From Myxococcus xanthus (lineage in GTDB: Bacteria > Myxococcota > Myxococcia > Myxococcales > Myxococcaceae), in NCBI RefSeq assembly GCF_006402735.1, contig NZ_CP017174.1:7978001-8042000 (forward strand): a stretch of DNA of 64,000 bases, read 5' to 3'. Shown in pieces: positions 40,132-56,713 of this stretch. The position numbers and the translations under genes are program-made. Below the pieces are notes generated by a model that was not told the origin of the DNA, did no database searches, and saw only the letters and a list, made by a program, of their open reading frames with translations. Positions within the stretch are counted from its first letter, which is position 1; each line of letters starts with the position of its first letter.

Positions 40132-40249
40132 GCAGTCACTGCGCCAATCCTGAGTTCCGAGAAACCAACCACGTCAGCCCAGGCTCCCAACCTATCCGGC
40201 GATGTCAGAGGGCTCCGCTACGTTGGCTTTTCAACACCAGGAGAAGCGG

Positions 40250-40561
40250 ATGCAACTCGACAGCACGGAATTGAAGAACGGCCTCAAGGCCATGATCGTT
40301 GACCGCCTGCGGCTGGACATCGACCCCGCGAGCATTCCGGACGGGGCACCGCTGTTCGGGAGCGACGCTCAGGATGGTGAGGCCGGTGGCCTGGGTCTCG
40401 ACAGCGTCGAGGCCTTGGAAATCGTGGTCGGCATCGAGGAGAAGTGGGGCGTCGTCATCGCGGATGACAGCGTCGCCAAGGAGTTCCACTCCATCGACAC
40501 GCTCGCGGCGCTGGTCAGCCGGCTCATCGCTGAAGGTGGGAAGAAGGCCGCCTGTGCCTAG
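40250..40561 (+). CDS. Acyl carrier protein
   Basis: The protein is 103 residues from ATG 40250 with an AGGAG ribosome site; earlier in-frame Met codons lack one. The phosphopantetheine site is Ser52 in [11 protein letters not shown], followed by the recognition helix ([15 protein letters not shown]). An insert before the site ([16 protein letters not shown]) is like ACPs of dissociated polyene and ladderane-type systems. It is the only ACP in the operon, so all KS/KR/DH partners below probably use it. It overlaps the FabZ-like gene by 8 bases. Confidence 0.92.
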
Positions 40562-41036
40562 CCAGCAGGCAGCAACGCCCGCCAAGCTCGGCATCCAGGA
40601 GCTTCTCCAGCTCCTGCCGCATCGCTATCCGATGCTCATGGTCGACCGGATTGACGGCTTGGAACCCGGCGTGTTCGCCGAGGGAATCAAGTGCGTCACG
40701 GCGAACGAGCCCTTCTTCCAGGGGCACTTTCCCGAACACCCCATCATGCCCGGCGTGCTGATCGTCGAATCCATGGCCCAGGTGGCGGGCGTCATGCTGC
40801 GCACGAGGAGCCGTCCGGACCTTGTGCCCGTGGAGCCGGCGGAACAGAAGCCAGCGCGGCCGGGCGTGATGGCCAACATCCACCGGATGCGCTTCCGTCG
40901 CCCTGTCGTTCCGGGCGATCAGCTCCGTGTCCGGGCCACGCACCTCAAGAGCCTCGGCACCATCCATCACGTGAAGGTCGAAGCGCGGGTGGGCGAAGAG
41001 CTGGTCGCCGACGGCGAATTGATGCTGGGCGCCTAG
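40554..41036 (+). CDS. FabZ-like 3-hydroxyacyl-ACP dehydratase
   Basis: The 160-residue hot-dog protein has a GTG start inside the end of the ACP gene. [11 protein letters not shown] and [23 protein letters not shown] are the FabZ signature. Catalytic His58 and Glu72 are both present with the normal 14-residue spacing. It should dehydrate 3-hydroxyacyl-ACP to the trans-2-enoyl-ACP. A second hot-dog protein (44047-44496) in the same operon has lost these residues, so a heteromeric dehydratase is possible, as described for ApeI/ApeP of aryl-polyene systems. Confidence 0.92.
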
Positions 41037-41056
41037 CCCCAAGGAAACCCATCACC

Positions 41057-41827
41057 ATGTTCTTGAATGTGCTGCTCCAGGGGAGCGGCTTTCCACGGCT
41101 GCGCTCCACTGTCACCCTCGTGCAATCCCAACAGCGAAACATCCTGGTGGACAGCGGTCTGTGCGACGACGCGGAACGCTTGGTGCTGGCACTCAAGGAA
41201 CGCGGCCTGACACCGGATGACGTGGACGTGGTCGTCGCCACCCACCTTCACTACGACCACTGCGGCAATCACCTGCTGTTCCGCAACGCGCGGTACGTCG
41301 TGGGTGCCAAGGACTTCGTCGAGAACGCGCACTTCATCGAGGCGTATCACCAGGACCACACCCCTGGGAAAGCCGCGACCTCGGAGCTGCTGCGCGAGCA
41401 TTACCAGACGGTGAAGGAGTTCTATGTCCGGTCCATCGTACGTGAGGTGACTCGAAACATCGGATTCTACAACCGCGTGCTCGAACGTGACTCGCGCTTC
41501 GTCCCTGTCGACGGCAGCCATTGGCTGACGGAGGAGGTCGAGGTGCTGCCCACGCCGGGCCATACCCATGGACATATCTCCGTCGTCGCGCACCGCGCCC
41601 GCACGGACGATGAGGGCACGCCGCGAAAAATTCTCATCGCGGGGGATGCGCTCTTCACACGGAAGACCTTGGTGGAGAACGCCGAGCGGGAGCTCCAGCT
41701 CGCGCAGGACACCGAGCTCTACAGCCACACTCGCCGCAAGCTCCTCCGCGAATACCGCCACATCATCCCGGGTCACGACTGTCTGGTGGACACGGCGCCG
41801 TCCGAGCCACTGGAGAAGCTCTCGTGA
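41057..41827 (+). CDS. Metallo-beta-lactamase-fold hydrolase
   Basis: The protein has 256 residues. The HxHxDH motif is at His63-His68 (THLHYDHCGNH), with PTPGHTHGHISVV, LIAGDAL and HIIPGHD as the later metal ligands. It belongs to the MBLAC1/glyoxalase-II-like part of the superfamily. Embedded in a type II FAS/PKS-like operon, it most likely hydrolyses a thioester or lactone of the product or intermediate. Its stop overlaps the first ketosynthase start by 4 bases (GTGA). Confidence 0.85.
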   Translation: MFLNVLLQGSGFPRLRSTVTLVQSQQRNILVDSGLCDDAERLVLALKERGLTPDDVDVVVATHLHYDHCGNHLLFRNARYVVGAKDFVENAHFIEAYHQDHTPGKAATSELLREHYQTVKEFYVRSIVREVTRNIGFYNRVLERDSRFVPVDGSHWLTEEVEVLPTPGHTHGHISVVAHRARTDDEGTPRKILIAGDALFTRKTLVENAERELQLAQDTELYSHTRRKLLREYRHIIPGHDCLVDTAPSEPLEKLS

Positions 41828-43035
41828 GCCCCCATCGCGTCGTCATCACGGGCCTTGGCGTGACGGCCGCCAATGCGCTGTCCGCCGACGAGCTCGCCCA
41901 GGCCCTGGCGAACCGCCGCAGCGGCATCCGGCGGGCCGCCCCGTTCGACATCGAAGGCCGGACGTACTCCGCGGGCGTGGTGGACCTGCCAGACAAGGCG
42001 CCCGACGACGGGGTGGACCGGGTGTCGAAGCTGGCCCTCCACGCCGCGGAGCAGGCCCTTCACGACAGTGGGCTCGAAGCCCAGGGGAACTGGCGGGAGG
42101 AGACGGGGGTCATGCTGGGCACGAGCCGTGGGCCCGCCTTGTCCCTCGAACAGGTCATTCGCTCCGGAGGTGATGAGGACGCTCGCCGAAGACACTTCGG
42201 GGAGGTTCCCTTCTCCTCCATCGCGCGGAACGTCGCGGACCGGTTCGGACTGGGCGGCATCCTGTCCACCGTCACCATGGCCTGCGTGTCCAGCAGCCTC
42301 GCCATGGGCCGGGCACTGGACGAAATCCGTCAGGGCCGGGCCTCCGTGATGCTGGCGGGAGGGGCGGATGCACTGACCCTGCTCAGCTTCAGTGGCTTCT
42401 CCGTCCTGCGTGCCATGACGCCCACGGTGTGCCGCCCCTTCGACCATCGGCGCAATGGGATGGTGCTCGGCGAGGGCGCGGGCATCCTCGTGCTCGAGGA
42501 GTTGGACCACGCGCGCCAGCGGGGCGCTCGAATCCATGCGGAGCTGTGCGGCTGGGGAACGGCAGGCGATGCCCATCACCCCACCAGCCCACACCCCGAG
42601 GGCCGGGGGCTCCAACAGGCGATGACGCTCGCCTTGCGACAGGCGGGACTGACGACGGAGCAGATCGACTTCGTCAACCTCCACGGAACCGGGACGCCGG
42701 CCAATGACCCCGCGGAGTGCCACGCCCTACGAGGTGTCTTCGGTGCGCGAGCCACGTCGGTGCCGGTCAACTCCCTCAAGCCCTACTTCGGCCACACGCT
42801 GGGGGCCTCCGGCGCACTGGAGCTCATCGGCTCCGTGCTGGGCATGGCTCGTGACTTCCTCCCGCCTACCCTCAACTGCGAGGAACTGGACCCGAAGTGC
42901 GACGTCGACGTGGTGCGTGGCGAGGGCCGCGCCCAACGCATCGACACGCTGATGAGCACCAAGTCCGCGTTCGGCGGGGCGAACGTCGCCCTCATTGCCC
43001 GGCGCTTTCCAGGAACAGGGAGGACGGCACGATGA
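41824..43035 (+). CDS. Beta-ketoacyl-ACP synthase, intact (KS1)
   Basis: The 403-residue FabF-type thiolase-fold protein has the complete Cys-His-His set: Cys154 (VTMACVSSS), His287 (NLHGTGTPAND) and His324 (YFGHTLGASG). It carries out decarboxylative Claisen condensation with malonyl-ACP. The following gene, overlapping by 4 bases, encodes a KS-fold paralogue with both His replaced, so KS1 probably works as a KS/chain-length-factor-like heterodimer. It is closer in layout to aryl-polyene and dissociated PKS KS than to housekeeping FabF. Confidence 0.93.
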   Translation: MSPHRVVITGLGVTAANALSADELAQALANRRSGIRRAAPFDIEGRTYSAGVVDLPDKAPDDGVDRVSKLALHAAEQALHDSGLEAQGNWREETGVMLGTSRGPALSLEQVIRSGGDEDARRRHFGEVPFSSIARNVADRFGLGGILSTVTMACVSSSLAMGRALDEIRQGRASVMLAGGADALTLLSFSGFSVLRAMTPTVCRPFDHRRNGMVLGEGAGILVLEELDHARQRGARIHAELCGWGTAGDAHHPTSPHPEGRGLQQAMTLALRQAGLTTEQIDFVNLHGTGTPANDPAECHALRGVFGARATSVPVNSLKPYFGHTLGASGALELIGSVLGMARDFLPPTLNCEELDPKCDVDVVRGEGRAQRIDTLMSTKSAFGGANVALIARRFPGTGRTAR

Positions 43036-44054
43036 GCCGGCGCATCGTCATCAGCGGGCTCGGCGCGGTGTGTCCCCGGGCCACGGGACCTACAGCACTC
43101 TGGGAGCTCTTCTCCCGAGGCGACGCGGGCCCACCGTCCTCCTTGGCGGAGCGCATTCCCGACGCGGCGTTCGTGAAGCAGTCTTCCCAGCTGCGACACA
43201 TGGACCGGCTCGGGCGCATCGCGCTCACCGCGACCACGCTTGCCATCGAGGATGCCGGGCCCGGCAATCCCCTCCAGACAGGCATCGCGTTCGGCTCCGG
43301 CTACGGCTGCCTGCCCACGAACGAGGAGTACCTGGAAGGCATCCTGGAGCGAGGCGGCCGCTATGGAAACCCGGTGGTGTTCCAGAACACCGTCACCAAC
43401 GCGGCGACTGGCTACATCTCCATGGTGCACGACCTTCGCGGTCCCACCGCGACCCTGTGCTCGGGCCACGCCGCGGGGCTGGAGGCGCTTCGCTTCGGCT
43501 GCCAGCAAATCGAGGAGGGCCAGGCGGAGCGGATGGTGGTGGTGGGCGCGGACACCCTGAGCCCCATGCTCCTGGCGGGCCTCGCCCTGCCTGAGGCCAC
43601 ACGGGTGAGTGAAGCGGCGTGCGCCCTGGTCCTGGAGGAGCACACGCGGGCCCTGACGCGCGGCGCACACCGCCACGCGGAAGTCCTGGGCACCGGGCAC
43701 CGGGGAGGCTCGCTCACGAACCAGGCGCACACGCTGGCTCGCGCGGTGCGGGACGCGATGCACATGGCACGAATCGAGCCCGAGCAACTGGGCGCCGTCT
43801 TCTCCTGTGCTAGCGGCCGAGGAGACTTCGACGGATGGGAGCAGCGTGGGCTGCACGAAGCCCTCGGGGCGCACGCGGCGAAGGTGCCCGTGAGCTGTCC
43901 CAAGGACGTGCTTGGAGAGACGTTCAGCACGGCGGGCATGCTGGCGGTCGTGCTGGCCACGCGGGCCCTCGATAAGGGATGCGCGCTGGTCACCGCCCTG
44001 GGGGGTGAGGGCTGCGCCCTGGCCGTGGTGCTGCGCGGGGGTGCTCATGACTGA
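43032..44054 (+). CDS. Degenerate ketosynthase (KS2), chain-length-factor-like
   Basis: The 340-residue protein is about 60 residues shorter than KS1. The nucleophile position keeps Cys143 (TATLCSGHAAG). The first His motif is replaced by SCASGRGDFD (His to Ala), and GHTLGA reads GETFSTAG (His to Glu) while the preceding Lys is kept. Without both His it cannot decarboxylate malonyl-ACP normally. It begins inside the KS1 stop codon (ATGA), which supports a 1:1 heterodimer. Retention of Cys distinguishes it from classical CLFs, where Gln replaces it. Confidence 0.88.
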   Translation: MSRRIVISGLGAVCPRATGPTALWELFSRGDAGPPSSLAERIPDAAFVKQSSQLRHMDRLGRIALTATTLAIEDAGPGNPLQTGIAFGSGYGCLPTNEEYLEGILERGGRYGNPVVFQNTVTNAATGYISMVHDLRGPTATLCSGHAAGLEALRFGCQQIEEGQAERMVVVGADTLSPMLLAGLALPEATRVSEAACALVLEEHTRALTRGAHRHAEVLGTGHRGGSLTNQAHTLARAVRDAMHMARIEPEQLGAVFSCASGRGDFDGWEQRGLHEALGAHAAKVPVSCPKDVLGETFSTAGMLAVVLATRALDKGCALVTALGGEGCALAVVLRGGAHD

Positions 44055-44496
44055 GCACCCCATGGCCCGCATCTACAGCGGGACACCGCACCGGTTCCCC
44101 ATGCTGCTGGTCGACGCGGTGGAGGCGCTCTCACCGGGCTTTGGCAGGACGTTCAAGCAGGTCTCCGGCAACGAGATGATGTTCGAGCGTTTCGGAGACG
44201 CGCCCCCCGCCCTGCCCTCCTGCCTGCTGGTGGATGCCCTGGGACAGGTCGCCATCATGCTCCTGCGCGAGCCCGACGAAGTCACACCGTCGGTCTGGTA
44301 CCTCGGCGGCATCGAGGCAATGACATTTCACACACCCATCCCGGCCGGCAGCGTCCTGCGGATGGAAGCCAACATTCTCAAGCGGTGGCGGACCACGGTG
44401 CGCGTCGAGGTCAAGGCATGGGCCGACGCTGTCCCGGCCGCCAGCGGCGTCATGGTGCTTTCCCAGAGAGGTTCGAAATCACATGAGTCACCCTGA
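44047..44496 (+). CDS. Degenerate FabZ-like hot-dog protein
   Basis: The 149-residue protein overlaps KS2 by 8 bases. HRFPMLLVDAVEALSPGFG and CLLVDALGQVAIMLL align with FabZ. The catalytic His position is Phe (FERFGDAPPALP) and the catalytic Glu is Asp. The fold and dimer interface look intact, so it may be a structural partner of the intact dehydratase (40554-41036). In aryl-polyene synthesis the dehydratase is a heteromer of two FabZ-like proteins. It overlaps the next gene by 14 bases. Confidence 0.85.
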   Translation: MTEHPMARIYSGTPHRFPMLLVDAVEALSPGFGRTFKQVSGNEMMFERFGDAPPALPSCLLVDALGQVAIMLLREPDEVTPSVWYLGGIEAMTFHTPIPAGSVLRMEANILKRWRTTVRVEVKAWADAVPAASGVMVLSQRGSKSHESP

Positions 44497-45232
44497 AACA
44501 AACACACCCTTCCTGAACGGCTTGCTCCACCAGCAGGTGGTGCTGGTCACCGGAGCGGGACAGCCCATCGCCAATGCCATTGCACGGCGCCACGGGAAGG
44601 CCGAGGCACGTCTGGCCCTGGTGTTCCTACCAGAGCACGAGGCGGCGGCAACGGCACTCGCCAGGGAGCTGAGCGCGGAGCTGGCCCTGGCCTGCGAGTC
44701 TTCTGACGCACAGGCGGTGGGCACGGTGGTCCGCCGCGTCGCCACGGAATTGGGCCGCATCGACCTGCTCATCAACGCGTCATTGAGCCGCGCGGCCGGT
44801 CGACTCAGCGACTTGTCCGCCGAGCAGTGGAAGGCCGTGCTCGACCGCCAGTTGAGTGGGACAACGTGGTTCTGCAAGGAGGTCATCCGCCCGATGATGC
44901 GCAAGCGCTCGGGGCGCATCATCAACCTGCTGGATGCCGCTTCCGGAGGCGCGAGCCGAGTGGCCGCCGAAGGCATCACCGCGATGACGCGCGCGCTGGC
45001 GAACGAGGTGGCCCGGCAGGGCATCTCCGTGAACACGCTGGCGGTCCAACTCCTGGAAGAAGAGACAGCACACCTCTCCCCGGCGCAGCGCGAGCGGCTC
45101 GATGGCGAGCTGGGTCCTCTGGGGAGGCTCGGGAGCGCGGAGGAGATTGCGGAGGCCGTGCTCTTCCTCGGCTCGAGCGCGGCGAACCTCACGACGGGTC
45201 AGCGCCTGTCTGCCACCGGAGGTCTGTGGTGA
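44483..45232 (+). CDS. Degenerate short-chain dehydrogenase/ketoreductase-like protein
   Basis: The 249-residue Rossmann SDR resembles FabG overall (VVLVTGAGQPIANAIA, GRIDLLINASLS, GRIINLLDAASGG, NTLAVQ). The cofactor motif TGxxxGIG has become TGAGQPIA, NNAG has become NASL, and the YxxxK active site is replaced (Tyr to Ser, Lys to Ala in ASRVAAEGITAM). It is therefore unlikely to reduce anything. It directly precedes, with a 4-base overlap, an intact FabG-type reductase and may form a heterotetramer with it. Confidence 0.85.
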   Translation: MSHPETNTPFLNGLLHQQVVLVTGAGQPIANAIARRHGKAEARLALVFLPEHEAAATALARELSAELALACESSDAQAVGTVVRRVATELGRIDLLINASLSRAAGRLSDLSAEQWKAVLDRQLSGTTWFCKEVIRPMMRKRSGRIINLLDAASGGASRVAAEGITAMTRALANEVARQGISVNTLAVQLLEEETAHLSPAQRERLDGELGPLGRLGSAEEIAEAVLFLGSSAANLTTGQRLSATGGLW

Positions 45233-46002
45233 GTGAATCCCAGGCAACACGTCAGCGGTTCCAGCAGCAGACGGTCATCATCACGGGCGGCTCGCGTGGC
45301 ATTGGCAAGGCCATTGCCCTCGCCTTCGCCGCGGAGGGCGCGGACATCGTCCTCAACTACGGGAGCAACGCGGAGGCCGCGCGTCAGGCCGCCGCGGAGG
45401 TCGAATCACAGGGCCGCCGCTGCGTGCTGGTCCCCGGCTCGGTCGCCAGCCCCGACGTGCCGGGGCAGCTCCGGGAGGCGGCGCTCGCGAACTTCGGCCG
45501 CATCGATGTGCTCGTGAACAACGCCGGCATCAGCCGGGATGGGCACCTGATGATGCTCCAGGCCGCGGCCTGGCGGGAGACGGTGGACGTCAACCTCTAC
45601 GGCGCGCTCGCATGCTGTCAGGCGGTCATCCCCACCATGGTGCAGCAAGGCCGTGGCGCCATCATCAACATGTCCTCCTCCGCCGGAATCCGGGGACGCG
45701 CGGGACAGGTGCCCTACGCCGCGACCAAAGGGGCCTTGATTGGGCTGACGCAGGCGCTGGCGGGGGAGCTGGGGCCGCATGGCATCCGGGTGAACTGCGT
45801 GGCGCCTGGCTTCGTGGAGACGGAGATGGTCGCGGGACTGATGAACCGTCCCGGCGTCCGTGAGGGCTTCATCCAGGCCACCCCCATCCGCCGGCTTGGC
45901 ACCGTGGAGGATGTCGCCAACGCCACGCTCTTCCTGGCGTCGCCAGAGAGCGCCTACGTGGTGGGCGACGTGCTGCGCGTGAATGGCGGGCTGGTGCTGT
46001 AG
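45229..46002 (+). CDS. 3-oxoacyl-ACP reductase, intact (FabG-type)
   Basis: The protein is 257 residues from GTG 45229, overlapping the degenerate SDR (GTGA). TGGSRGIG cofactor loop, NNAG, Ser150 (NMSSSAG), Tyr163 and Lys167 (YAATKGAL) give a complete active site. It reduces 3-oxoacyl-ACP to 3-hydroxyacyl-ACP with NADPH. Together with KS1/KS3 and the FabZ-like dehydratase it can run a complete unsaturated two-carbon extension cycle. No enoyl reductase is present in the operon, so the product should keep its double bonds (polyene-like). Confidence 0.92.
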   Translation: MSESQATRQRFQQQTVIITGGSRGIGKAIALAFAAEGADIVLNYGSNAEAARQAAAEVESQGRRCVLVPGSVASPDVPGQLREAALANFGRIDVLVNNAGISRDGHLMMLQAAAWRETVDVNLYGALACCQAVIPTMVQQGRGAIINMSSSAGIRGRAGQVPYAATKGALIGLTQALAGELGPHGIRVNCVAPGFVETEMVAGLMNRPGVREGFIQATPIRRLGTVEDVANATLFLASPESAYVVGDVLRVNGGLVL

Positions 46003-46064
46003 CGCGCCGTCCGCGTTCGTCTGTCTTTTCAAGGAATCGCGCAACACGGGCTGAGAGGAACAGG

Positions 46065-47300
46065 ATGAGCAACAAAGTCGTCGTTACCGGCATTGGCGTT
46101 CTCACGCCCATTGGCAACAACCTGGCGGAGTTCTCCGAGGGGCTGCGCTCGGGGAGAGACGGCATCGCGCCCGTCACCCATTTCGATGCCAGCAAGCATC
46201 GCTGTCAGTCCGCTGGCGAGCTGAAGAACATCGATTTCTCGGCGCACTTCAGCCCCGAGGAACTGCCCTACCTCAGTCGCGGCGCCCAGATGATTCGCGT
46301 GGCGGCGGCGCAAGGGCTGGCGGCATCCGGGCTGGACCTGGAGGTCGAGGATCGCTCGCGCGTTGGCGTGGTGCTTGGAACCAACCTGGGAGGGATGCCG
46401 GCGAGGAAGGAGGGCTACGCCGCGCTGCACTACCCCTACCGGCGCGGACGGGCGGGTCCAAAGGAGTCGTGGCGCGCCCTGGTGCTCGACAGCTTCATCT
46501 GCGCCATGAGCGACCACGTCGCCAGCCAGTACCAACTGGGGGGACTCAGCCTGGTCATGTCCACCGCGTGCAGCGCGGGCCTGCATGCCCTGGGTGTGGC
46601 GATGGATGCGATTCGCTCCGGGCGGTCCGAGGTGATGCTCGCGGGCGGAGTCGATCCGCTCAGTGAGATGCCCCAGGCCGGCTTCGGCGTCCTGCGCTCC
46701 CTGGCGAGCGACAAGCTGCGGCCCTTCAGCAAGGACCGGGATGGGACGCTGCTGGGCGAGTCCGCCTCCCTGTGGGTGCTGGAGAGCGAGGCCCACGCGA
46801 AGCGCCGCGGAGCGAACATCCTGGCGGAGCTCGCGGGCTACGGAGGCTCCACGGACGCCTACCACATGACCCGGCCCGACGAGACGGGGCGCGGCCCCGC
46901 GCGGGCCATGCAGGCGGCGCTCGCGAGCGCGGGCATGAAGCCCGAGCAGATTGGCTATATCAAGGCGCACGGCACGGGCACGCCGGCCAATGACGTCATC
47001 GAGACACGCGCCATCAAGCATGTCTTTGGCGAGCAGACCCGGGTCCCCGTCAGCTCCATCAAGGCGATGGTCGGCCACAGCCTCGGTTCCAGCGGCGCCA
47101 TGGAGGCGGCCGCCGCGGTGGTGGCGCTGAACGGTGGCTTCCTGCCGCCCACGCTGCACCTGGATACGCCAGACCCCGAGTGCGACCTGGACTACGTGCC
47201 CCATCACAGCCGGCCCGCGAAGCTGGAAGCGGTGCTCTCCAACGCGTTTGGCTTTGGCGGCAACAACGCCGCGATGGTCTTCCGCCGCTGGGAGGGCTGA
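46065..47300 (+). CDS. Beta-ketoacyl-ACP synthase, intact (KS3)
   Basis: The 411-residue FabF-type enzyme has Cys169 (MSTACSAGLHAL), His302 (KAHGTGTPAND) and His338 (MVGHSLGSSG). It starts 62 bases after the ketoreductase, the largest gap in the biosynthetic part, so an internal promoter is possible. It is clearly different from KS1, suggesting a separate step (initiation or a later extension). The next gene overlaps by one base and is a catalytically dead KS paralogue. Confidence 0.93.
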   Translation: MSNKVVVTGIGVLTPIGNNLAEFSEGLRSGRDGIAPVTHFDASKHRCQSAGELKNIDFSAHFSPEELPYLSRGAQMIRVAAAQGLAASGLDLEVEDRSRVGVVLGTNLGGMPARKEGYAALHYPYRRGRAGPKESWRALVLDSFICAMSDHVASQYQLGGLSLVMSTACSAGLHALGVAMDAIRSGRSEVMLAGGVDPLSEMPQAGFGVLRSLASDKLRPFSKDRDGTLLGESASLWVLESEAHAKRRGANILAELAGYGGSTDAYHMTRPDETGRGPARAMQAALASAGMKPEQIGYIKAHGTGTPANDVIETRAIKHVFGEQTRVPVSSIKAMVGHSLGSSGAMEAAAAVVALNGGFLPPTLHLDTPDPECDLDYVPHHSRPAKLEAVLSNAFGFGGNNAAMVFRRWEG

Positions 47301-48556
47301 TGGAACACAAGGGGAAACGCATGGCAGGCGGTACGCAAATGACAGACGAGATGCGAGTGGTCATCACCGGCATGGGCGCGGTGTCCCCCTACGGGGCCGG
47401 CGTCCCTACCTTGCTGGACGCACTCGCCCAGGGACGCAGCGCCATCCGCCCCATCGACGACTTCGATGTGTCCGGGTGCGGCTGCAAACACGGGGCGCGC
47501 GTCCCGCAAGGGAGCCTCGCCGCGCTGACAGGCTCCAACAACCTGCGGCGGGCGCCTCGAGGGACGCAGTACACGATGCTCGCCACGGAGGAGGCGCTCC
47601 AGATGGCGGGGCATGGGCCCTCCACCTGGAACCCGGAGCGGGTGGGCGTGTTCCTGGGCACCTACCGGGCCATGGCGGAGGTCAGTCAGGACATCTGGCA
47701 CCGCATCATCACCAGCGAGCCCCGCTTCGTCCAACCGCTGCTGTTCCAGGAGACTGTGACGAACGCGGTGGCCAGCGCGCTCAGCATCCGCTGGGGCTGG
47801 CGCGGCACCAACTACGCCATCAGCGCGGGTAACGCCTGCGGCTTTCAGGTGCTCGCCCTGGCGGCGCAGGCGCTGCGCAGCGGACGGGCGGACGCCCTCA
47901 TCGCGGGCACGTTCGACCTGTTCACCACTGCCACCCACTTCGACATGGATGACATTGGCGTGCTAAGCGACACCAACGTGAGCCGCCCCTTCGACAGCAG
48001 GCGAGATGGCTACATCATGGGCGAGGGAGCGGCGGTGGTGGTGCTGGAGACGCTCGCCTCCGCGCGGGCGAGAGGCGCCACCCCGCTGGCGGAGATCGCG
48101 GGCCTGGGCGTGGCGCACGACGGGCACGCCTTCGGCATCCATCATCCGGAGGGCCGAGGACTGGCCTCCGCGATGAGCCAGGCGCTTCGCGACGCGGAGG
48201 CCTCGCCCGAGGCCGTGGACTACATCGCAGCCGCGAGCAACTCCACGCAGTCGTTGGATAGGGCGGAGGTGGCCGCGCTGAAGACGGTGATGGGCGCCGC
48301 GGCGCGCGCCATTCCCCTCAGCAGCGTGAAGGGGCTCATGGGCGAGGCGGAGTCCGCCAGCGACATGTTCAACCTGCTCGCCTGTATCAGCGCGGTTCGG
48401 GGTGGCGGGTTGCCAGTCCAGGGCGGCACCGAGCAGCCGGAGTTCGAGCTCAATCTGGTGCGCCAACCGCGGCCACACCGGTCCGTCCGGGCGGCCCTGG
48501 CGCACTCCTACTCGTTCGGGGGCAACGCCGGCGCGGCGTTGGTCCGGGCGCTCTAG
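47300..48556 (+). CDS. Degenerate ketosynthase (KS4), chain-length-factor-like
   Basis: The protein is 418 residues from ATG 47300 (TGATG junction with KS3; GGGAGGG upstream); a later ATG at 47339 is possible. The nucleophile Cys is replaced by Asn178 (SAGNACGFQV, with an off-register Cys180), the first His by Ala (IAAASNSTQSLD) and the second by Glu (KGLMGEAESASD). All three catalytic residues are gone, so it should be a structural or chain-length partner of KS3. KS2 and KS4 share the His-to-Ala and His-to-Glu changes, which argues for a common CLF-like role. Confidence 0.9.
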   Translation: MEHKGKRMAGGTQMTDEMRVVITGMGAVSPYGAGVPTLLDALAQGRSAIRPIDDFDVSGCGCKHGARVPQGSLAALTGSNNLRRAPRGTQYTMLATEEALQMAGHGPSTWNPERVGVFLGTYRAMAEVSQDIWHRIITSEPRFVQPLLFQETVTNAVASALSIRWGWRGTNYAISAGNACGFQVLALAAQALRSGRADALIAGTFDLFTTATHFDMDDIGVLSDTNVSRPFDSRRDGYIMGEGAAVVVLETLASARARGATPLAEIAGLGVAHDGHAFGIHHPEGRGLASAMSQALRDAEASPEAVDYIAAASNSTQSLDRAEVAALKTVMGAAARAIPLSSVKGLMGEAESASDMFNLLACISAVRGGGLPVQGGTEQPEFELNLVRQPRPHRSVRAALAHSYSFGGNAGAALVRAL

Positions 48557-48573
48557 CATCGAGGACGACAGAC

Positions 48574-49302
48574 ATGGCCAACTTGGAAGGGACAGCGGCA
48601 AGCACGGCGAACGAGGACGTGCTCCTGTCTCTGAACGACATCCGGCGCGACTACGTCCTGGGAGAAGCACGGGTCGAAGCCTTGAAAGGCGTCTCCCTGC
48701 GCATCCACCGGGGAGAGTTCGTCGCCATCTGGGGTCCGTCGGGCAGCGGCAAGTCCAGCCTGATGAACATCCTGGGGTTGGTGGACGCGCCCACCTCGGG
48801 TGAGGTGTCGCTGGAAGGCACGCCCATCGCGAAGCTGACGGACAACGCGCTCTCCGACTTGCGCAGCCGCAAGGTCGGCTTCGTCTTCCAGAGCTTCAAC
48901 CTCATCCCCGTGCTCAGCGCCCTGGAGAACGTCATGGTGCCGCTGCAGATTCAGGGCGTGGGCGCCGCCGAGGTACGCGAGCGCGCCAGTCAGGCGCTCA
49001 AGGACGTGGGCCTGGAGAATCAAGCCAGCGCGCGCCCGGACAAGATGAGTGGCGGTCAGCGCCAGCGCGTGGCGATTGCCCGCGCGCTCGTCACGTCGCC
49101 GTCCATCGTCGTGGCGGATGAGCCCACGGCCAACCTGGACTCGGAGAACAGCTACATGGTGGTCAAGCTCATGCGTGAGCTCAACCGCTCCAAGCGCGTC
49201 ACCTTCATCTTCACCACCCATGACCCGCGGCTCCTGGACCTGGTCGACCGGAAGCTCCTGCTCAAGGACGGTCTGCTCCAGGCGGACGAGGCTGTGCGAT
49301 GA
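48574..49302 (+). CDS. ABC transporter ATPase, LolD/MacB type
   Basis: The 242-residue cytosolic ATPase has Walker A (GPSGSGKSS), the Q-loop (FVFQSFNLIPVLSALENV), signature MSGGQRQRVAIARAL, Walker B plus Glu (VVADEPTANLD) and H-loop (FTTHD). It is highest in likeness to the LolD/FtsE/MacB group, which energises extrusion of lipids or lipoproteins. It overlaps the FtsX-like permease gene by 4 bases. In this operon it probably drives release or transport of the lipid or polyene product. Confidence 0.93.
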   Translation: MANLEGTAASTANEDVLLSLNDIRRDYVLGEARVEALKGVSLRIHRGEFVAIWGPSGSGKSSLMNILGLVDAPTSGEVSLEGTPIAKLTDNALSDLRSRKVGFVFQSFNLIPVLSALENVMVPLQIQGVGAAEVRERASQALKDVGLENQASARPDKMSGGQRQRVAIARALVTSPSIVVADEPTANLDSENSYMVVKLMRELNRSKRVTFIFTTHDPRLLDLVDRKLLLKDGLLQADEAVR

Positions 49303-50525
49303 ACTACTTCTCCATTGGCTTCCGCAACATCCTGAAGAATCACCGGCGCAGCCTCGTCACCCTTCTCTCGGTGGGCTTCGGCTTCGCCTCCATCAGCCTC
49401 TTCGCGGGATACATCAAGTATGTGTACGGCGGGCTGGCCAAGCAGGCCATTCATGGAGAACTGCTGGGGCACCTGACGGTGATGAAGCAAGGCCTGCGCA
49501 CCGAAGGCCGCCTCCATCCGGCGCAATACATGTTCTCCAAGGAGGAGCTGGACCGGGTGATGCCCATCCTCCGGCAATACCCTCACACGCGGCTGGTGAC
49601 GCCGCGCATGTCGCTCAGCGGAATGGTGTCCAACGGCACCGCGTCCACCGTCTTCGTGGGCGAGGGCATGGTCCCCGAGGATGTCAAGAAGCTCCAGGGT
49701 GACTTCCAGCGCAAGCTGTCAGGTGACTTGAAGGCGGACAACCCCATCGGGGTAGCGACGGCGGAGGACCTGGGCAAGATTCTCAACCTGAAGCCCGGCG
49801 ACTCGGCCGCGCTGCTGGTGAGCACGGTGACAGGTCAGGCCAATGCGCTAGACGTGGACATCGTGGACCACTTCAACACGGGCAACGTCGGCACCAATGA
49901 CAAGTTCCTGTACCTGCCCTTCGACCTGGCGAAGTCCCTGTATGACTTCGACGGCGCCGAGCGGCTCATCGTGCTGCTGGATGACAAGGCCTTCACCGAG
50001 CAGGCGCGGACGGAGCTCACGGCACAGCTCAAGCAAGCGGGCTTCGACGTGGAGCTCAAGACGTGGCTGGAACTGTCGAGCTTCTACTCACAGGTGAAGC
50101 GCCTGTTCGACATGATTTTCGCCTTCATCTTCAGCAACGTCTTCATCGTGGTGGTCATGAGCATCGTGAACTCCATGAGCATGACGGTGGTGGAGCGGAC
50201 GCGGGAGATTGGAACGCTGCGCGCCATGGGGCTGCGCCGCTCGGGCATCTTGCGACTCTTCACCACCGAGGCCTTCATGCTCGTGGTGCTGGGATGCGCC
50301 GGAGGGTTGCTCTTCACGTTGCTGGTGCGACTGGCCGTCAACAGCGCGGGCATCACCTATACCCCGCCCAACTCCTCCAACGTGGTCAGCCTCATGGTCG
50401 ACCTCGACATGCCCCGGATGGCGAGGACGTTCGTCATGCTCTCGCTGCTGGGCATCGCCGCGGCCTTCTTCCCGGCGCGTACCGCCGCGCGCAAGTGCAT
50501 CACCGATTCGCTGGGCCATGTCTGA
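49299..50525 (+). CDS. FtsX/LolCE-type ABC permease
   Basis: The 408-residue inner-membrane protein has one N-terminal transmembrane helix (TLLSVGFGFASISLFAGYI), a periplasmic domain of about 220 residues, then three C-terminal helices (FAFIFSNVFIVVVMSIVNSM, EAFMLVVLGCAGGLLFTLLV, FVMLSLLGIAAAFFPA). RTREIGTLRAMGLRRSGIL is the cytoplasmic coupling helix of the FtsX family. A homodimer with two LolD-like ATPases is the likely complex. Mechanotransmission rather than channel-like transport is established for this fold. Confidence 0.92.
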   Translation: MNYFSIGFRNILKNHRRSLVTLLSVGFGFASISLFAGYIKYVYGGLAKQAIHGELLGHLTVMKQGLRTEGRLHPAQYMFSKEELDRVMPILRQYPHTRLVTPRMSLSGMVSNGTASTVFVGEGMVPEDVKKLQGDFQRKLSGDLKADNPIGVATAEDLGKILNLKPGDSAALLVSTVTGQANALDVDIVDHFNTGNVGTNDKFLYLPFDLAKSLYDFDGAERLIVLLDDKAFTEQARTELTAQLKQAGFDVELKTWLELSSFYSQVKRLFDMIFAFIFSNVFIVVVMSIVNSMSMTVVERTREIGTLRAMGLRRSGILRLFTTEAFMLVVLGCAGGLLFTLLVRLAVNSAGITYTPPNSSNVVSLMVDLDMPRMARTFVMLSLLGIAAAFFPARTAARKCITDSLGHV

Positions 50526-50544
50526 CGGAAAGAGAGACATCACC

Positions 50545-51288
50545 ATGAAACACATCCTGGCGCTCATCATCGGACTGCTGCTCTTGCACACCGGAACAGC
50601 GCGGGCGGCGGAGCCAGACGCGGCGGAGATTCTCAGGGCTTCGGACCGCTCGCGGGGCGGAGGACTTCCTGGCATCCGCTGGACGGTCCGCATCCGTCCC
50701 GAAAGCGGCGTGGACAAGGAGCCCGAGCGGCTGCTCACCCTGAAGGCCAATGCCACCGCCAGCCTCGCGGAGACGCGAGAGCCCGTGCGCTTCAAGGGCT
50801 CCAAGCTGCTCCAGGTGGACCGGAACATGTGGATGAGCCGTCCCGGCCTCCGCAAGCCCATCCCCATCTCACCGAGGCAGAAGCTCTCCGGTCAGGCGTC
50901 TCAAGGCGACATCGCGTCGACGAACTACGCCGTCGACTACCAGGGCAAGTTGCTGCGCGAAGAGGACATCAACGGCGAGACCAGCTACGTGCTGGAGTTG
51001 AAGGCCATCAACACGTTCTGCACCTATGACCGCATCACCTACTGGGTCTCCAAGGAGCGGCAGGTCGGCGTCAAGGCGGAGTTCTTCTCCCTCTCCGGCA
51101 AGCTGCTGAAGTCCGCCACCTTCGAGTACGGCAACCAGCTCACCCACGAAGGCAAGACGTTCCCCTTCGTGAGCAAGATGACCATCCAGGACGCGCTCAC
51201 GCCCGCCAGGACGACGCTGGAGTACGCCGACGTGCAGGTGACGGAGCTGGCGCGCGGGACGTTCGACGTCAACCGGCTTGGGAACTGA
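50545..51288 (+). CDS. LolA-like outer-membrane lipoprotein-sorting protein
   Basis: The 247-residue periplasmic protein has a Sec signal (MKHILALIIGLLLLHTGTA, cut before AEPDAAE). The rest matches the outer-membrane lipoprotein-sorting protein family of LolA/LppX fold: LKGSKLLQVDR-like strand, PGLRKPIPISPRQKLSGQAS, IASTNYAVDYQGKLL and NTFCTYDRITYWVSKE. These proteins hold hydrophobic cargo in a beta-shell. Next to an FtsX-like permease and an outer-membrane barrel, it probably shuttles lipid-like cargo across the periplasm. Confidence 0.87.
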   Translation: MKHILALIIGLLLLHTGTARAAEPDAAEILRASDRSRGGGLPGIRWTVRIRPESGVDKEPERLLTLKANATASLAETREPVRFKGSKLLQVDRNMWMSRPGLRKPIPISPRQKLSGQASQGDIASTNYAVDYQGKLLREEDINGETSYVLELKAINTFCTYDRITYWVSKERQVGVKAEFFSLSGKLLKSATFEYGNQLTHEGKTFPFVSKMTIQDALTPARTTLEYADVQVTELARGTFDVNRLGN

Positions 51289-51293
51289 GCCGC

Positions 51294-52625
51294 ATGCGTT
51301 CCAAGCGAATCGCTGTCTTCCCGCCAGCCGGCCTGTCATTGCTCATGGGCCTGCTGGCGGGAGGGCTGGGCACGAACGCGAAGGCCCAGGCGATCCAGGA
51401 GCTGCTGGAGCAGGGCTCCGCCGGCCTCCAGGTGCTGGCTCTGGACAGTGAGCGAGGACTCCGTGAGAACAGCCTGCTCAATCCTGGCAACCGCATCGCC
51501 CATCTTCCAGCAGGGCAGACGGAGGTGGAGGGCCGGCTTGATTTGAAGCTCGTCACGGACACCTTCGAGGCGAGCCTGAAGCCCCGGGCCCGCTTCGAGT
51601 GGCGGCGCTTCGGGGAGACGGGACCGGAGACACGGCTCGACGCCTGGGTGAACCAGGGTCTGGTGACGCTCTACCCGGTGCAGTCGCTCGCCGTGTCCCT
51701 GGGCAGGGACGTGCTCATGTGGGGGCCCTCCAATTTCCGTTCGCCCAGCAATCCCATCTACTTCGAGAACGGCCGGAACAACCCCATGCGCGAGCTGCGC
51801 GGCGTGGACGTGGCCCAGGCCACCTGGTCCCCTACGCAGGCGCTGGCCCTGTCGCTGCTGCACCAGTTCGGCGACGGACGCGGAGACTGGCAATGGGAGA
51901 AGGAGGACGGATTCAAGGCCCTGTCGTTGCTGAAGGTGGACTACACAGCCGAGGCCTCCGTCGTGGGACTAAACGCCTCCAAGCGGTGGGCCCACGAACG
52001 TCCGCGCTTCGGTGCATTCGGGCAGACCACCGTCGGCGAGGCGCTGCTCCTCTACGCGGAAGGTGGCCTGCGACAGGGGACGGCCGCGCTCTACCCCGAG
52101 CGGCTCCCCAACGCCGTGGGAGGCGCCTTCCTGCCTCGCCATGCGCGGGACCACCGGCTCCTCTATTCCGCGCTCGCTGGCGGCGGGTACACGCTGGACT
52201 CCGGCCACACCGTCTACCTGGAGTACCTGAGCAACAATGAAGGCTACCGGTGGGCAGATGGCGCGCGGTACTTCGACATCGCTAGTCGTGCCTCCTCGGT
52301 CCTGGCCATCCCCTCCCCGGATGCCGCGCTCGCGGGCCAGACGCTAGGGGCGGCGCTCAACAATGGGCTGGCGCTCCTCGGGCGCCACTATCTGTTCTTG
52401 CAGGTGCAGAACAACCCCACCGACACCGGGCCCACCTGGCAGCTCCGCTATTCGCTCAACCTGGTGGACGGCAGCGGACAGGCCTCCGCCTATGCCGAGT
52501 GGAACATCTGGAGCCGACTGGCGCTCTTCGCGGTAGGCGTCATGCACCACGGAGGCAACCGCACCGAGTTCCACTCATTGCTGAGCCAGTCGATACTCGT
52601 GGGAGCCAAGGGCTACGTCCTGTAG
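51294..52625 (+). CDS. Outer-membrane beta-barrel protein of the transport module
   Basis: The protein is 443 residues with signal-like N-terminus (RIAVFPPAGLSLLMGLLAGG, cut near AKAQA). Long amphipathic strands follow (VEGRLDLKLVTDTFEASLKPRARFEWR in parts, LAVSLGRDVLMWGPSN, ALALSLLHQFGDG, LLLYAEGGL, YTLDSGHTVYLEYL, LFLQVQNNP, LALFAVGVMHHGG). It resembles barrels annotated as alginate-export-like or DUF1302-like. It starts 5 bases after the LolA-like gene and closes the operon. It probably is the outer-membrane end of the export path. Confidence 0.78.
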   Translation: MRSKRIAVFPPAGLSLLMGLLAGGLGTNAKAQAIQELLEQGSAGLQVLALDSERGLRENSLLNPGNRIAHLPAGQTEVEGRLDLKLVTDTFEASLKPRARFEWRRFGETGPETRLDAWVNQGLVTLYPVQSLAVSLGRDVLMWGPSNFRSPSNPIYFENGRNNPMRELRGVDVAQATWSPTQALALSLLHQFGDGRGDWQWEKEDGFKALSLLKVDYTAEASVVGLNASKRWAHERPRFGAFGQTTVGEALLLYAEGGLRQGTAALYPERLPNAVGGAFLPRHARDHRLLYSALAGGGYTLDSGHTVYLEYLSNNEGYRWADGARYFDIASRASSVLAIPSPDAALAGQTLGAALNNGLALLGRHYLFLQVQNNPTDTGPTWQLRYSLNLVDGSGQASAYAEWNIWSRLALFAVGVMHHGGNRTEFHSLLSQSILVGAKGYVL

Positions 52626-52670: not shown

Positions 52671-54245
52671 TCACCGGGAGCCCAGCTTCTCCAGCATCTT
52701 CACCGCGTTGTCGTTCTGGGGGTTGAGCTCCAGCGACTTCTTGTAGCGCATGACAGCGTCATTCTTGCGGCCTGCCTCGGCGTAAGCCTCCCCGAGGCTG
52801 TCGTGCGCATTGGCATCGTCGGGATAGAACTCGACATTGGCCTCGAACACCTTCACGGCGTCCGCGAGCTTCTGCTGGCGTAGGAGCCCATAGCCGATGT
52901 CGTTGAGGATTCCCGGGGACAATCCAGCGTCCGCAGCCCGCCCCTGTTTGCGGTCCTTGAACCAGGCAATGGCGGCGTCCACGCCCTGGAGCCGGACCAG
53001 CAAGTCCACCGTCATGAAGGGGCTGTCCGGCTGGGTCTCCTCCATGCCCTTCCAGCCATACTCCGCCGCCGCGCTTGCGAGGAGCCGCTCGAAGAGGCGC
53101 GAGCCGTCATCCGAGTTCGTCATGACGGCGATACCGCTCCCGGACTCCGCCAGGGCCATGAGGAAGGCGCGGTAACCCTCGTTGGCGCCGCTGTGTCCGA
53201 ACCATTCCTTGCCCTCGCGGCGCATGAAGCCAATGCCGAAGTCCGAGGACTGACGCGTGAGCATCTGCTTCGCCATCGACGGGGAGACGATGCGCCGGGA
53301 CTTGCCGTTCCAGGTCTTGGAGACCTCCAGGGCGATGTGCGCCAGGTCGGAAGGCGTGGTCCACAGTCCCGCGGGGGCCATCTCCGGGTAGGTATGCCAA
53401 CGCCCCTCGACGCTCGTGCCACCTGAACGGGTCCCGATGGCGGCGCGTGCTTCCAGGGCCTTGGGGAGCGGCTGCTCGAAGGTGCTGTTCTTCAGGCCCA
53501 ACGGAGCGAAGACCGCCTCCTTCATGATGCGCGGGAACGGCTGCTGGAGTTGGTCGACGAGCATCTGCTGGACGACGACCGTGCCCCCACCGCTGTAGCG
53601 CGTCCGCGTTCCCGGCACGGTGTCGACCCGCACGGCGCCGCTGTTCGCGGGCGCCGCACCGTCGAGAATCTGCTGCGTCGTCGGCACGGCCGCTCCCGGC
53701 GAGTAACCCGCGAAGCCATGCACCGTCGTGCCCGCGTTGTGCGCGAGCAACCGGCGCAGGGTGACCTTCTGCTCCTTCGTGAAGTCGTTCTCCGGCACCT
53801 TCCAGGAGACGAGCGCGTCATTGATGTCCGCGTCGAGCGACCACTTGCGCTTCTCCGCGTGGCGCATGGCCGCGAGCGCCGTGACGGGCTTGCTGATGGA
53901 GGCCGCCTGGAAGAGCGTGTCGACGGTGACGGGCTCGATGCCGCCCGCCTGCTTCACGCCATAGGTCTTCGCCCAGACCAGAGTTCCCTTGTCGAAGACG
54001 GCGATGCTCAGCCCAGGCACCGCATACAGCTCCATCCATTGCTGGAGCGACAGGCGCCTGGGCGCCTCACCGGGAAGCGCGATGGGTGCGAGTCCCGCCT
54101 CCACCCGTGTGATGCGTGCGGCCTCCGAAGGCCGTGCGAGCCACTCAGTGACGGGGCGCCGCGGGGCAGCGGCGGTGAGCAGCACGAGGGCGGCGAGGCC
54201 GGCCAGTGCCGTGGCGACGAAGCGGGAAGGACGCATTCGGGGCAT
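52671..54245 (-). CDS. Serine beta-lactamase-family hydrolase with C-terminal TPRs
   Basis: The protein is 524 residues from ATG 54245 (or 54236). It has a hydrophobic N-terminal signal or anchor (FVATALAGLAALVLLTAAA). The class C beta-lactamase/DD-peptidase motifs are SISK (FQAASISKPVTALAAM), YSG (RYSGGGTVV) in place of YxN, and HSG (WFGHSGANEGY) in place of KTG, typical of esterase-like members. The last 100 residues contain TPR-like pairs (DIGYGLLRQQKLADAVKVFE, HDSLGEAYAEAGRKNDAVMRY). Substrate is probably a peptide or ester. It is convergent with the export operon. Confidence 0.9.
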   Translation of the reverse strand: MPRMRPSRFVATALAGLAALVLLTAAAPRRPVTEWLARPSEAARITRVEAGLAPIALPGEAPRRLSLQQWMELYAVPGLSIAVFDKGTLVWAKTYGVKQAGGIEPVTVDTLFQAASISKPVTALAAMRHAEKRKWSLDADINDALVSWKVPENDFTKEQKVTLRRLLAHNAGTTVHGFAGYSPGAAVPTTQQILDGAAPANSGAVRVDTVPGTRTRYSGGGTVVVQQMLVDQLQQPFPRIMKEAVFAPLGLKNSTFEQPLPKALEARAAIGTRSGGTSVEGRWHTYPEMAPAGLWTTPSDLAHIALEVSKTWNGKSRRIVSPSMAKQMLTRQSSDFGIGFMRREGKEWFGHSGANEGYRAFLMALAESGSGIAVMTNSDDGSRLFERLLASAAAEYGWKGMEETQPDSPFMTVDLLVRLQGVDAAIAWFKDRKQGRAADAGLSPGILNDIGYGLLRQQKLADAVKVFEANVEFYPDDANAHDSLGEAYAEAGRKNDAVMRYKKSLELNPQNDNAVKMLEKLGSR

Positions 54246-54417
54246 GTCGAGAGCGCTACGAAGGAGTTCGCAGTGGATTGCACCCGCGCAGGAGATTTCG
54301 AGCGGGCGCCTGCATTCCGCCGGGCACTGACAAACCGTGGGCCCCATCCCGACCTCCAGCGTCTGGGTCGCTCCGGATTGACGTCAGTCACGCCACGTTG
54401 TCCCGTAAAGGGCTGGC

Positions 54418-54966
54418 ATGCCATTGCATCGCTATCCCTATGTGGGTCCGGAGGAGATACGCCTCGCGGTCGCAACGTCGCCAGCCGGAGTCCCCATCCT
54501 GGCGGCACGAGACGTCGAAGCGTGGCTCCAAGCGACACCGGATGCCCTCATCGAGGGAGCCACATATATCGTCGACCTCCAAGGGCGGCTTCGCCTGGCC
54601 CCACGAAGGTCCGAGCACGTCGCGTGTGCGGAAGGCGAGGACGTGCTCGCCGCAGGCGAGATTCGCTTCCAGCGAGACACCCACGGCGTCACGGTGGCCG
54701 AAGTCTCGAATCAGTCCACGGGGTACTGTCCGGACACGACGTGTTGGACCGCCGTCGAGCGGGCCCTCGCACATGCGGGCCTGAATGCTCCCGCCGGATT
54801 CACGCACGAAGCCATTTTCCGGCGCTGCCTCCGGTGCGGCGAAGTCAACCTCGTGAAGGAGGGCTGGTTCGTCTGCGTGTTCTGTGAGGCCGACCTGCCC
54901 CAGGAGTGGAACATCTCCCCTACTGCTTCTGGAACTCCGGCGAGCCCAGCAACAACCCGGCGATGA
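54418..54966 (+). CDS. Zinc-ribbon-containing protein of unknown function
   Basis: The 182-residue soluble protein has a C-terminal ribbon CLRCGEVNL-x7-CVFCEADLP (two CxxC pairs spaced by about 12 residues), which should bind one zinc. An upstream YCPDTTCW pair may contribute. The N-terminal part (GPEEIRLAVATSPAGVPI, DALIEGATYIVDLQGRLRLA) looks like a small alpha/beta domain. I do not recognise the family. Its last 47 bases overlap the 3' end of the convergent DUF1800 gene. Confidence 0.7.
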   Translation: MPLHRYPYVGPEEIRLAVATSPAGVPILAARDVEAWLQATPDALIEGATYIVDLQGRLRLAPRRSEHVACAEGEDVLAAGEIRFQRDTHGVTVAEVSNQSTGYCPDTTCWTAVERALAHAGLNAPAGFTHEAIFRRCLRCGEVNLVKEGWFVCVFCEADLPQEWNISPTASGTPASPATTRR

Positions 54967-56536: not shown

Positions 56537-56713
56537 GACGATGGAGGAACCCCACACGGTACCTGAAGTTACGCGGTGAGCTGTGGGCTCGAAGTCAAAT
56601 GACGCTTTCCTGGCGCAAAGGACTCCCGGGCCACTGCATCGTGACTTGCTGCGGGGCGCACGATGTCGTTCCACCGGGACTGGGGCTGCCCGTCGGCGCC
56701 CCCGGAGAGCGCC

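Follow-up and report, generated by a model that had tools for sequence, protein, structure and literature searches.

A fourteen-gene operon with paired enzymes

The window analyzed here is a stretch of 64,000 nucleotides from Myxococcus xanthus (positions 7,978,001 to 8,042,000 of contig NZ_CP017174.1), whose genome consists of a single 9.3-Mb contig. Positions 40250 to 52625 of the window hold, on the + strand, fourteen closely packed genes that form one operon and encode, in this order, an acyl carrier protein (ACP), a dehydratase (DH), a metallo-β-lactamase-fold hydrolase (MBL), two ketosynthases (KS1 and KS2), a second dehydratase-like protein (DH'), two short-chain dehydrogenases/reductases (SDRs; KR' and the ketoreductase KR), two further ketosynthases (KS3 and KS4), an ATPase, a permease, a LolA-like protein, and a protein of 443 residues. 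A single ACP is accompanied by two KS pairs, two FabZ-like proteins, and two FabG-like proteins. Overlap is the rule between adjacent biosynthetic genes; from KS1 to KR, it amounts to 4 (KS1/KS2), 8 (KS2/DH'), 14 (DH'/KR'), and 7 (KR'/KR) bases. The original prediction, made from the DNA letters, had placed an operon related to type II fatty acid and polyketide synthases (PKSs) at this site, and the positions, strand, and family matches of all the genes that it named agree with our analysis; its gene list was nevertheless incomplete, since the MBL gene (41057 to 41827), located between those encoding DH and KS1, had been omitted. In the following list of features, enzymes are called intact or dead according to their catalytic residues.

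40201..40249, +, conserved 5' element: ATGTCAGA, then ACGT, then CAACA, followed by a ribosome-binding stretch (upstream-DNA comparison)
40250..40561, +, ACP with serine motif GLDSVE (PF00550, 23.4 bits for a cut-off of 20.8; best NCBIfam match, PRK09184, below cut-off)
40554..41036, +, DH, FabZ-like dehydratase with intact His58 and Glu72 (NCBIfam FabZ models above cut-off; residues in 11/11 copies)
41057..41827, +, MBL, metallo-β-lactamase-fold hydrolase with an HLHYDH motif (PF00753; present in 11/11 operons)
41824..43035, +, KS1, intact ketosynthase with Cys154, His287, and His324 (family match, alignment)
43032..44054, +, KS2, dead ketosynthase resembling a chain-length factor, with His or Trp, Cys or Gly, and Glu at the three sites (alignment, trees)
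44047..44496, +, DH', hot-dog protein with Phe49 and Asp63 replacing His and Glu (family match, alignment)
44483..45232, +, KR', SDR lacking the catalytic tetrad and an intact cofactor glycine motif (family match, alignment)
45226..46002, +, KR, intact FabG-like ketoreductase, start at 45226 or 45229 (family match, alignment)
46065..47300, +, KS3, intact FabF-like ketosynthase (family match, alignment)
47300..48556, +, KS4, dead ketosynthase with Asn/Ala/Glu; the start may be 47339 or 47351 (alignment, trees)
48574..49302, +, LolD-like ABC ATPase (best match TIGR02211, 238.7 of 307.75 bits)
49299..50525, +, FtsX/LolC-E-like permease (PF02687 and PF12704 above cut-off; lolCE model, 74 of 362.45 bits)
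50545..51288, +, LolA-like protein (PF17131)
51294..52625, +, 443-residue protein, candidate outer-membrane barrel by eye (hydrophobic N terminus, strand-like pattern; without family match)

Family searches assigned the products to the ACP, FabA/FabZ, ketoacyl synthase, SDR, ABC ATPase, FtsX, and LolA_like families. No enoyl reductase or ligase was recognized among the 14 genes, as the original prediction had claimed for enoyl reductases and for aromatic starter or ligase genes. Both SDRs match PF13561, a family whose name mentions enoyl reductase, but their highest scores are with FabG-type models, and KR' also lacks the Tyr and Lys needed for activity. The nearest gene for an AMP-binding protein (14048 to 15151) is located about 25 kb from the operon.

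Loss of catalytic residues in one member of each pair

To read the catalytic residues, the KSs of all four types and the two members of the DH and KR pairs were taken from 11 copies of the operon and aligned with the aryl polyene (APE) enzymes of E. coli. KS1 and KS3 retained the Cys/His/His triad in all 11 copies. In KS2, the catalytic Cys is replaced by His (4 copies) or Trp (7 copies), the first His by Cys (7 copies) or Gly (4 copies), and the second His by Glu (11 copies). The predicted loss of both His residues from KS2 was therefore correct but did not include the catalytic Cys, which is gone as well. Invariant replacements were found in KS4 (Asn/Ala/Glu at the three sites) and in DH' (Phe/Asp in place of the His/Glu kept by DH in 11/11 copies), exactly the losses first proposed for these two proteins. 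The Asn/Ser/Tyr/Lys tetrad of KR is also conserved in 11/11 copies. In KR', the second Asn of the NNAG motif is Ala, the catalytic Asn is Gln (10 copies) or His (1 copy), Ser is Asp, Lys is Glu, and Tyr is Arg (9 copies), Lys (1 copy), or Gln (1 copy); the TGxxxGxG motif carries a Pro, and both the tetrad and the glycine motif are lost in all 11 copies. The alignment of KR' is gapped beside the Tyr, making the loss of this residue surer than the identity of the replacing letters. The loss of Tyr and Lys from KR' had been foreseen, but with other replacing residues (Ser and Ala).

The alternative that the dead proteins keep their catalytic residues in a shifted register was considered and rejected: KS2 contains an invariant Cys (C143, 11/11), but this residue is located 3 positions upstream of the catalytic one, and both His residues are lost. 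The claim that each pair combines one complete and one degenerate member withstood this comparison, the alignment showing that the residues are truly lost. Live and dead partners are 31 to 34% identical, indicating that the pairs are old.

Conservation of the operon and selection on the dead proteins

The operon recurs in other myxobacteria, where the original prediction had proposed to look for it: the same 14 genes, with their order unchanged, were found in 10 of the 146 other genomes searched within the class (147 including that of the window itself), one of these lacking only the ACP gene, at which its contig starts. Nine of the ten belong to the same genus (9/26 genomes) and one to another genus. 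A search with KS2 gave an E value of 4e-122 for the weakest operon-bearing genome and 9e-19 for the next best match, with no comparable match in the other 136 genomes of the class that were searched. A DH' profile built from 9/11 operons and applied to 195 Myxococcota genomes retrieved the 11 operons at E values of 4e-84 or better, the next match being at 6e-18. In these searches, a limited number of first-look candidates was scored per genome: up to 14 (KS2), 8, or 20 (DH' profile). Searching genome contigs with KS2 gave 15 pattern matches and 4 confirmed loci; named records bearing the operon were Myxococcus sp. CA023, Pyxidicoccus fallax, Hyalangium versicolor, and a record titled Comamonas sp. 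KCTC 72670. This last title (L061) looks wrong, the operon found there being myxobacterial.

No stop codon interrupts the dead genes in any of the 11 copies. Median pairwise dN/dS values, calculated from tblastn-bounded sequences (ACP taken from 10/11 operons), were 0.29 for KS2, 0.15 for KS4, 0.31 for DH', and 0.29 for KR', in comparison to 0.19 for KS1, 0.11 for KS3, 0.18 for DH, 0.14 for KR, and 0.13 for MBL. The medians of the four degenerate genes are 1.4 to 2 times those of their partners, as might be expected of pseudogenes on their way out. This explanation is hardly tenable and is already contradicted by the intact reading frames, by the purifying selection, by the presence of these genes in all 11 operons, and by the loss of the same sites in every copy. 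Since their sites are uniformly dead, their frames free of stops, and their medians between 0.15 and 0.31, the dead proteins are under relaxed constraint yet retained, as kept subunits and not as decaying genes.

KS2 and KS4 resemble chain-length factors

Two phylogenetic trees were computed with 5/11 copies of each KS gene. In both, KS2 and KS4 group with dead KSs of other clusters, apart from every active KS row (98/99; 99/99). Because of this grouping, KS2 and KS4 look like chain-length factors (CLFs) and not like duplicates of their neighbors; recent duplications of KS1 into KS2 or of KS3 into KS4 were unsupported by both trees. The second tree was computed without seven rows of the first (Ecoli_ApeC, G093_CLFa, G122_CLFb, G122_KSa, G122_KSb, G087_KSa, and G087_KSb), which correspond to long CLFs and spare KS rows of APE-like clusters. 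KS2 and the fusC rows of Streptomyces are long branches that meet, making some placements unsure. The most conserved 25 residues of KS2 (103 to 127) and KS4 (119 to 143, counted from 47339) coincide in a region immediately ahead of the active site that we take to belong to the KS dimer interface, whereas the best-conserved stretches of KS1 and KS3 are located elsewhere.

Fusions of KS2-like proteins to active KSs were found on Streptomyces plasmids. In the first cluster (L098:9239-15062), a protein of 788 residues joins an intact KS, whose scores against KS3 (234 bits) and KS1 (223 bits) are similar, to a second half that is the best match of KS2 at this locus (138 bits), carries His/Asn/Glu at the three sites, and has no Cys at the place equivalent to C143. 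A second plasmid (L099:10083-15116) encodes a fusion of 794 residues, the halves of which group with those of the first. Both were read among eight listed of the 529 plasmid records with a KS2 match. These fusions indicate that KS2-type proteins can act as one unit with an active KS. Both adjoin a further KS pair, which in the first cluster (Cys and Ala at the site) is accompanied by two DHs with His and Glu and by one intact SDR; in the second, no DH or KR was present among the annotated genes of the 29 kb read.

Among solved structures, the closest relative of KS1 is 9s5h/9s5i (272 bits), which contains two different 3-oxoacyl-ACP synthase chains; chain C is also the best match of the dead KS from genome G085. 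The ishigamide PKS of Streptomyces (Iga11/Iga12; 6kxd) is a KS-CLF making a polyene, as proposed below for the operon; KS2 matched both of its chains, and the other three KSs matched chain A. The ishigamide PKS has a single KS-CLF pair.

Dehydratase and ketoreductase pairs

According to two reports (PMC10054515, PMC516016), each hot-dog dehydratase site combines the His of one subunit with an acidic residue, Asp or Glu, of its partner; FabA, which has Asp, is an isomerase as well, and the choice between the two acidic residues has been put forward as one reason why FabZ is not. The aryl polyene proteins ApeI and ApeP are described in another report (PMC8041823) as a DH heterodimer with a single active site. 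Our alignment, with His/Asp in ApeI and Phe/Glu in ApeP, fits this arrangement. Asp63 of DH' is invariant (11/11), and a DH/DH' dimer is predicted to hold one FabA-like site made of DH His58 and DH' Asp63.

For the ketoreductases, the adjacent live and dead SDR genes are kept together in 11/11 operons, as would be the case for a heteromer resembling BbsCD. The latter, described in the title of its report as a heterotetrameric SDR with inactive pseudoenzyme subunits, similarly combines live and dead SDRs but is a catabolic dehydrogenase of coenzyme A esters; among the structural matches of KR', many FabG proteins rank above the BbsCD chains (7pcs). We found no described case of a heteromeric or inactive ketoreductase in a type II PKS in a literature search that covered subscription journals poorly. 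Live/dead pairing, known for KSs and partly for DHs, may be new for KRs. Degenerate KRs were also observed in APE-like clusters of two other genomes from the same family. In G087 (L051:9330-10091), one KR lacks the Tyr and the catalytic Asn, with a second KR containing Ser, Tyr, and Lys about 6 kb away; in G122 (L052:2735-3316), the KR is largely eroded and located on an 8.5-kb contig. Thus, the question of the dead KR may be wider than this operon.

Hydrolase and export module

The MBL-fold hydrolase is a candidate product-release enzyme; its matches among solved structures are weak, and several are lactonases. The LolD-like, FtsX/LolC-E-like, and LolA-like genes make up the Lol-type export module of the original prediction, which the family matches support as Lol-like. 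The operon module and LolCDE/LolA share the same transporter and carrier superfamilies but differ in several respects: the NCBIfam equivalog cut-offs for LolD and LolC/E were both missed (scores listed above), and the operon has one permease gene, an extra barrel-like protein, and adjoining PKS genes. The barrel-like protein and three related proteins had no Pfam match even at E values up to 5. For this module, the barrel-protein profile was built from 10/11 operons, and the permease alignment, on which no search was based, contained 7/11 operons plus G066. In genome G098 (L043:3384-5492), a second barrel-like fragment, derived from the same protein, comes after the last operon gene.

Related modules occur in other contexts. 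In G066 (L082:2210-11865), LolD-like, LolE-like, LolA-like, and barrel-like genes are located downstream of large, modular PKS genes. One of the encoded PKS proteins was compared with Pfam and has KS and ACP domains and a C-terminal aminotransferase domain. G080 and G078 contain a more distant module near a KS pair and near genes that appeared by eye to be acyl-ligase-like and of the UbiA type. In G017, where ABC, permease, and barrel-like genes are also present, inspection of 18 kb by eye revealed no PKS. Thus, the export module sometimes, but not always, adjoins polyketide genes. Several neighboring genes in other genomes (ligase, UbiA-like, MMPL, and acyltransferase) were named by eye. Genes resembling, by eye, those of MlaD/MlaE-type lipid transport are also present in G017 (L083:3243-5981), a few kilobases from the permease and barrel-like genes.

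Comparison with characterized systems

No one-to-one match to a characterized cluster was found among the clusters searched. Myxobacterial type II PKSs are rare and mostly singletons, according to a survey (PMC13213394).

The operon resembles the APE cluster of E. coli CFT073 (ApeA-R) in its KS-CLF and in its paired DHs, one of which (ApeP in E. coli) carries Phe instead of the active-site His, such that the analogy originally drawn with the KS-CLF and DH heterodimers of aryl polyene synthases holds. Both also have a LolA-like carrier, and an outer-membrane destination has been proposed for aryl polyenes. An APE pathway, producing an aryl-capped polyene on an outer-membrane lipid, would account for this gene content, including KR and the lack of an enoyl reductase, and APE-like clusters are present in three other genomes of the family (identified by eye and by tblastn with the E. 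coli Ape proteins). We nonetheless regard this assignment as very unlikely. In the CFT073 cluster, an aryl ligase, acyltransferases, and an MMPL exporter accompany two ACPs, one KR, and a third KS, whereas no aryl-activating ligase, second ACP, MMPL exporter, acyltransferase, or hot-dog thioesterase was recognized among the 14 genes, and the E. coli APE proteins are 20 to 37% identical to the operon proteins.

The type II PKSs for cinnamoyl-type products also share a core with the operon. In the reports on epoxinnamide and the gla cluster (PMC9321520, PMC9381841), these systems combine two DHs, one KR, and one ACP with two or three KS/CLF pairs, which have been suggested to operate one after another; the youssoufene and kitacinnamycin PKSs are described in similar terms, and a polyene intermediate is common to all four. 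The operon likewise has two KS/CLF-like pairs, two DHs, and one ACP. It could accordingly specify a pathway in which a polyene is isomerized and then closed to a benzene ring, all the more so as the FabA-like His/Asp site of a DH/DH' dimer might isomerize. This possibility is distinctly unlikely, since no isomerase or ring-closing gene was recognized among the 14 genes. The cinnamoyl-type PKSs, from Streptomyces, have one KR, an isomerase, and tailoring genes, as far as described, whereas the operon has two KR-type genes; KR', MBL, and the Lol-type exporter set the operon apart from the published descriptions of these systems, the comparison being one of descriptions and not of sequences.

The original proposal of an undescribed pathway thus stands in part. 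In its favor are the lack of a one-to-one match and the unusual combination of a dead KR' beside KR, a hydrolase, and an ABC-type exporter; against it, KS/CLF pairs and paired DHs have already been described (PMC9321520, PMC9381841, and PMC8041823).

A proposed highly reducing type II PKS for an outer-membrane product

Highly reducing type II PKSs have a dead KS encoded next to a live one, their ACP, KR, and DH are separate proteins, and their clusters lack an enoyl reductase; all these features are found in the operon. We propose, with moderate confidence, that it specifies a myxobacterial PKS of this type, which would supply the outer membrane with a polyene acyl product. This proposal builds on the observed gene content, the loss and conservation of residues, the selection acting on the genes, the grouping of KS2 and KS4, and the KS fusions found elsewhere. 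From these sequence data, we infer the nature of the product, its release and export, the KR/KR' pairing, and every other pairing in this organism; the labels "lipid" and "polyene" likewise derive from gene content.

In the proposed mechanism, malonyl units would be carried by the single ACP, presumably loaded by the FabD of the cell. Condensation would be catalyzed by KS1/KS2 and KS3/KS4 heterodimers, probably one to start and one to extend the chain. The β-keto group would be reduced by KR in a heteromer with KR', and dehydration would be carried out by DH, alone or with DH'. Because no enoyl reductase was recognized, the double bonds would stay in the acyl chain, which would thus become a conjugated polyene. 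Release would be catalyzed by the MBL-fold hydrolase, and the product is one that the LolD/LolE-like ABC transporter, the LolA-like carrier, and the barrel-like protein would bring to the outer membrane. A bolder version, which we advance only tentatively and hold to be doubtful, is that all the chain-building steps are performed by obligate live/dead heteromers, with KR' as a pseudoenzyme subunit, a composite FabA-type site (DH His58 and DH' Asp63) that would both dehydrate and shift the double bond, and dead partners that would set the geometry and length of the polyene exported to the outer membrane.

Several observations weigh against the proposal. Neither an acyltransferase for lipid anchoring nor an isomerase nor a gene for loading of the starter was recognized in the operon. 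Some dead KSs fall outside the KS2/KS4 group, namely, E. coli ApeC in the first tree and the Streptomyces KSb proteins in the second. The best scores of KS1 and KS3 are with FabF models, and both are 35 to 37% identical to ApeO and ApeR. Since the active half of the first Streptomyces fusion matches KS1 and KS3 about equally, the fusion is compatible with either as the partner of KS2; gene adjacency points to KS1 as the likely partner here. The same Streptomyces cluster lends no support to DH' or KR' pairing, because both of its DHs and its single SDR are intact. The best family matches of MBL are lactonases, all below cut-off. The predicted structures of KS2 (mean pLDDT of 36.7) and of the 443-residue barrel-like protein (27.5), each obtained with an alignment of five sequences, are too poor to use.

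The operon might instead encode a specialized fatty acid synthase for a membrane lipid, with the enoyl reductase of the host leading to a saturated or hydroxy acyl chain. KS3 and DH do score above FabF- and FabZ-type cut-offs, the best-scoring models for KR are of the FabG type, and use of the host FabI has been described for cispentacin (PMC10698177). Dead KS partners are, however, typical of type II PKSs, and the operon has no enoyl reductase of its own; we therefore consider a fatty acid synthase unlikely.

The operon offers a compact and conserved test case for why biosynthetic enzymes retain dead partners. With a conserved dead ketoreductase, type II synthases would present a third such case, after the KSs, for which the explanation (the CLF) is known, and the DHs, for which it is partly known. 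The operon further suggests that myxobacteria have an ABC/LolA/barrel export route linked to polyketides.

Upstream element and neighboring genes

The ATGTCAGA, ACGT, and CAACA blocks of the 5' element are invariant before the ACP gene in the 10 operons with upstream DNA. A genome-wide search for a regulon sharing this element found a single copy in the 9.3 Mb; the element is possibly an operon-specific promoter or operator. Directly past the operon, the − strand encodes a β-lactamase-family (PF00144) protein with TPR-like repeats (52671 to 54347), followed by a DUF1800 protein (54923 to 57124, −). A full protein-arginine deiminase domain (PF03068, E value of 1.4e-85) is encoded on the + strand at positions 56663 to 58576.

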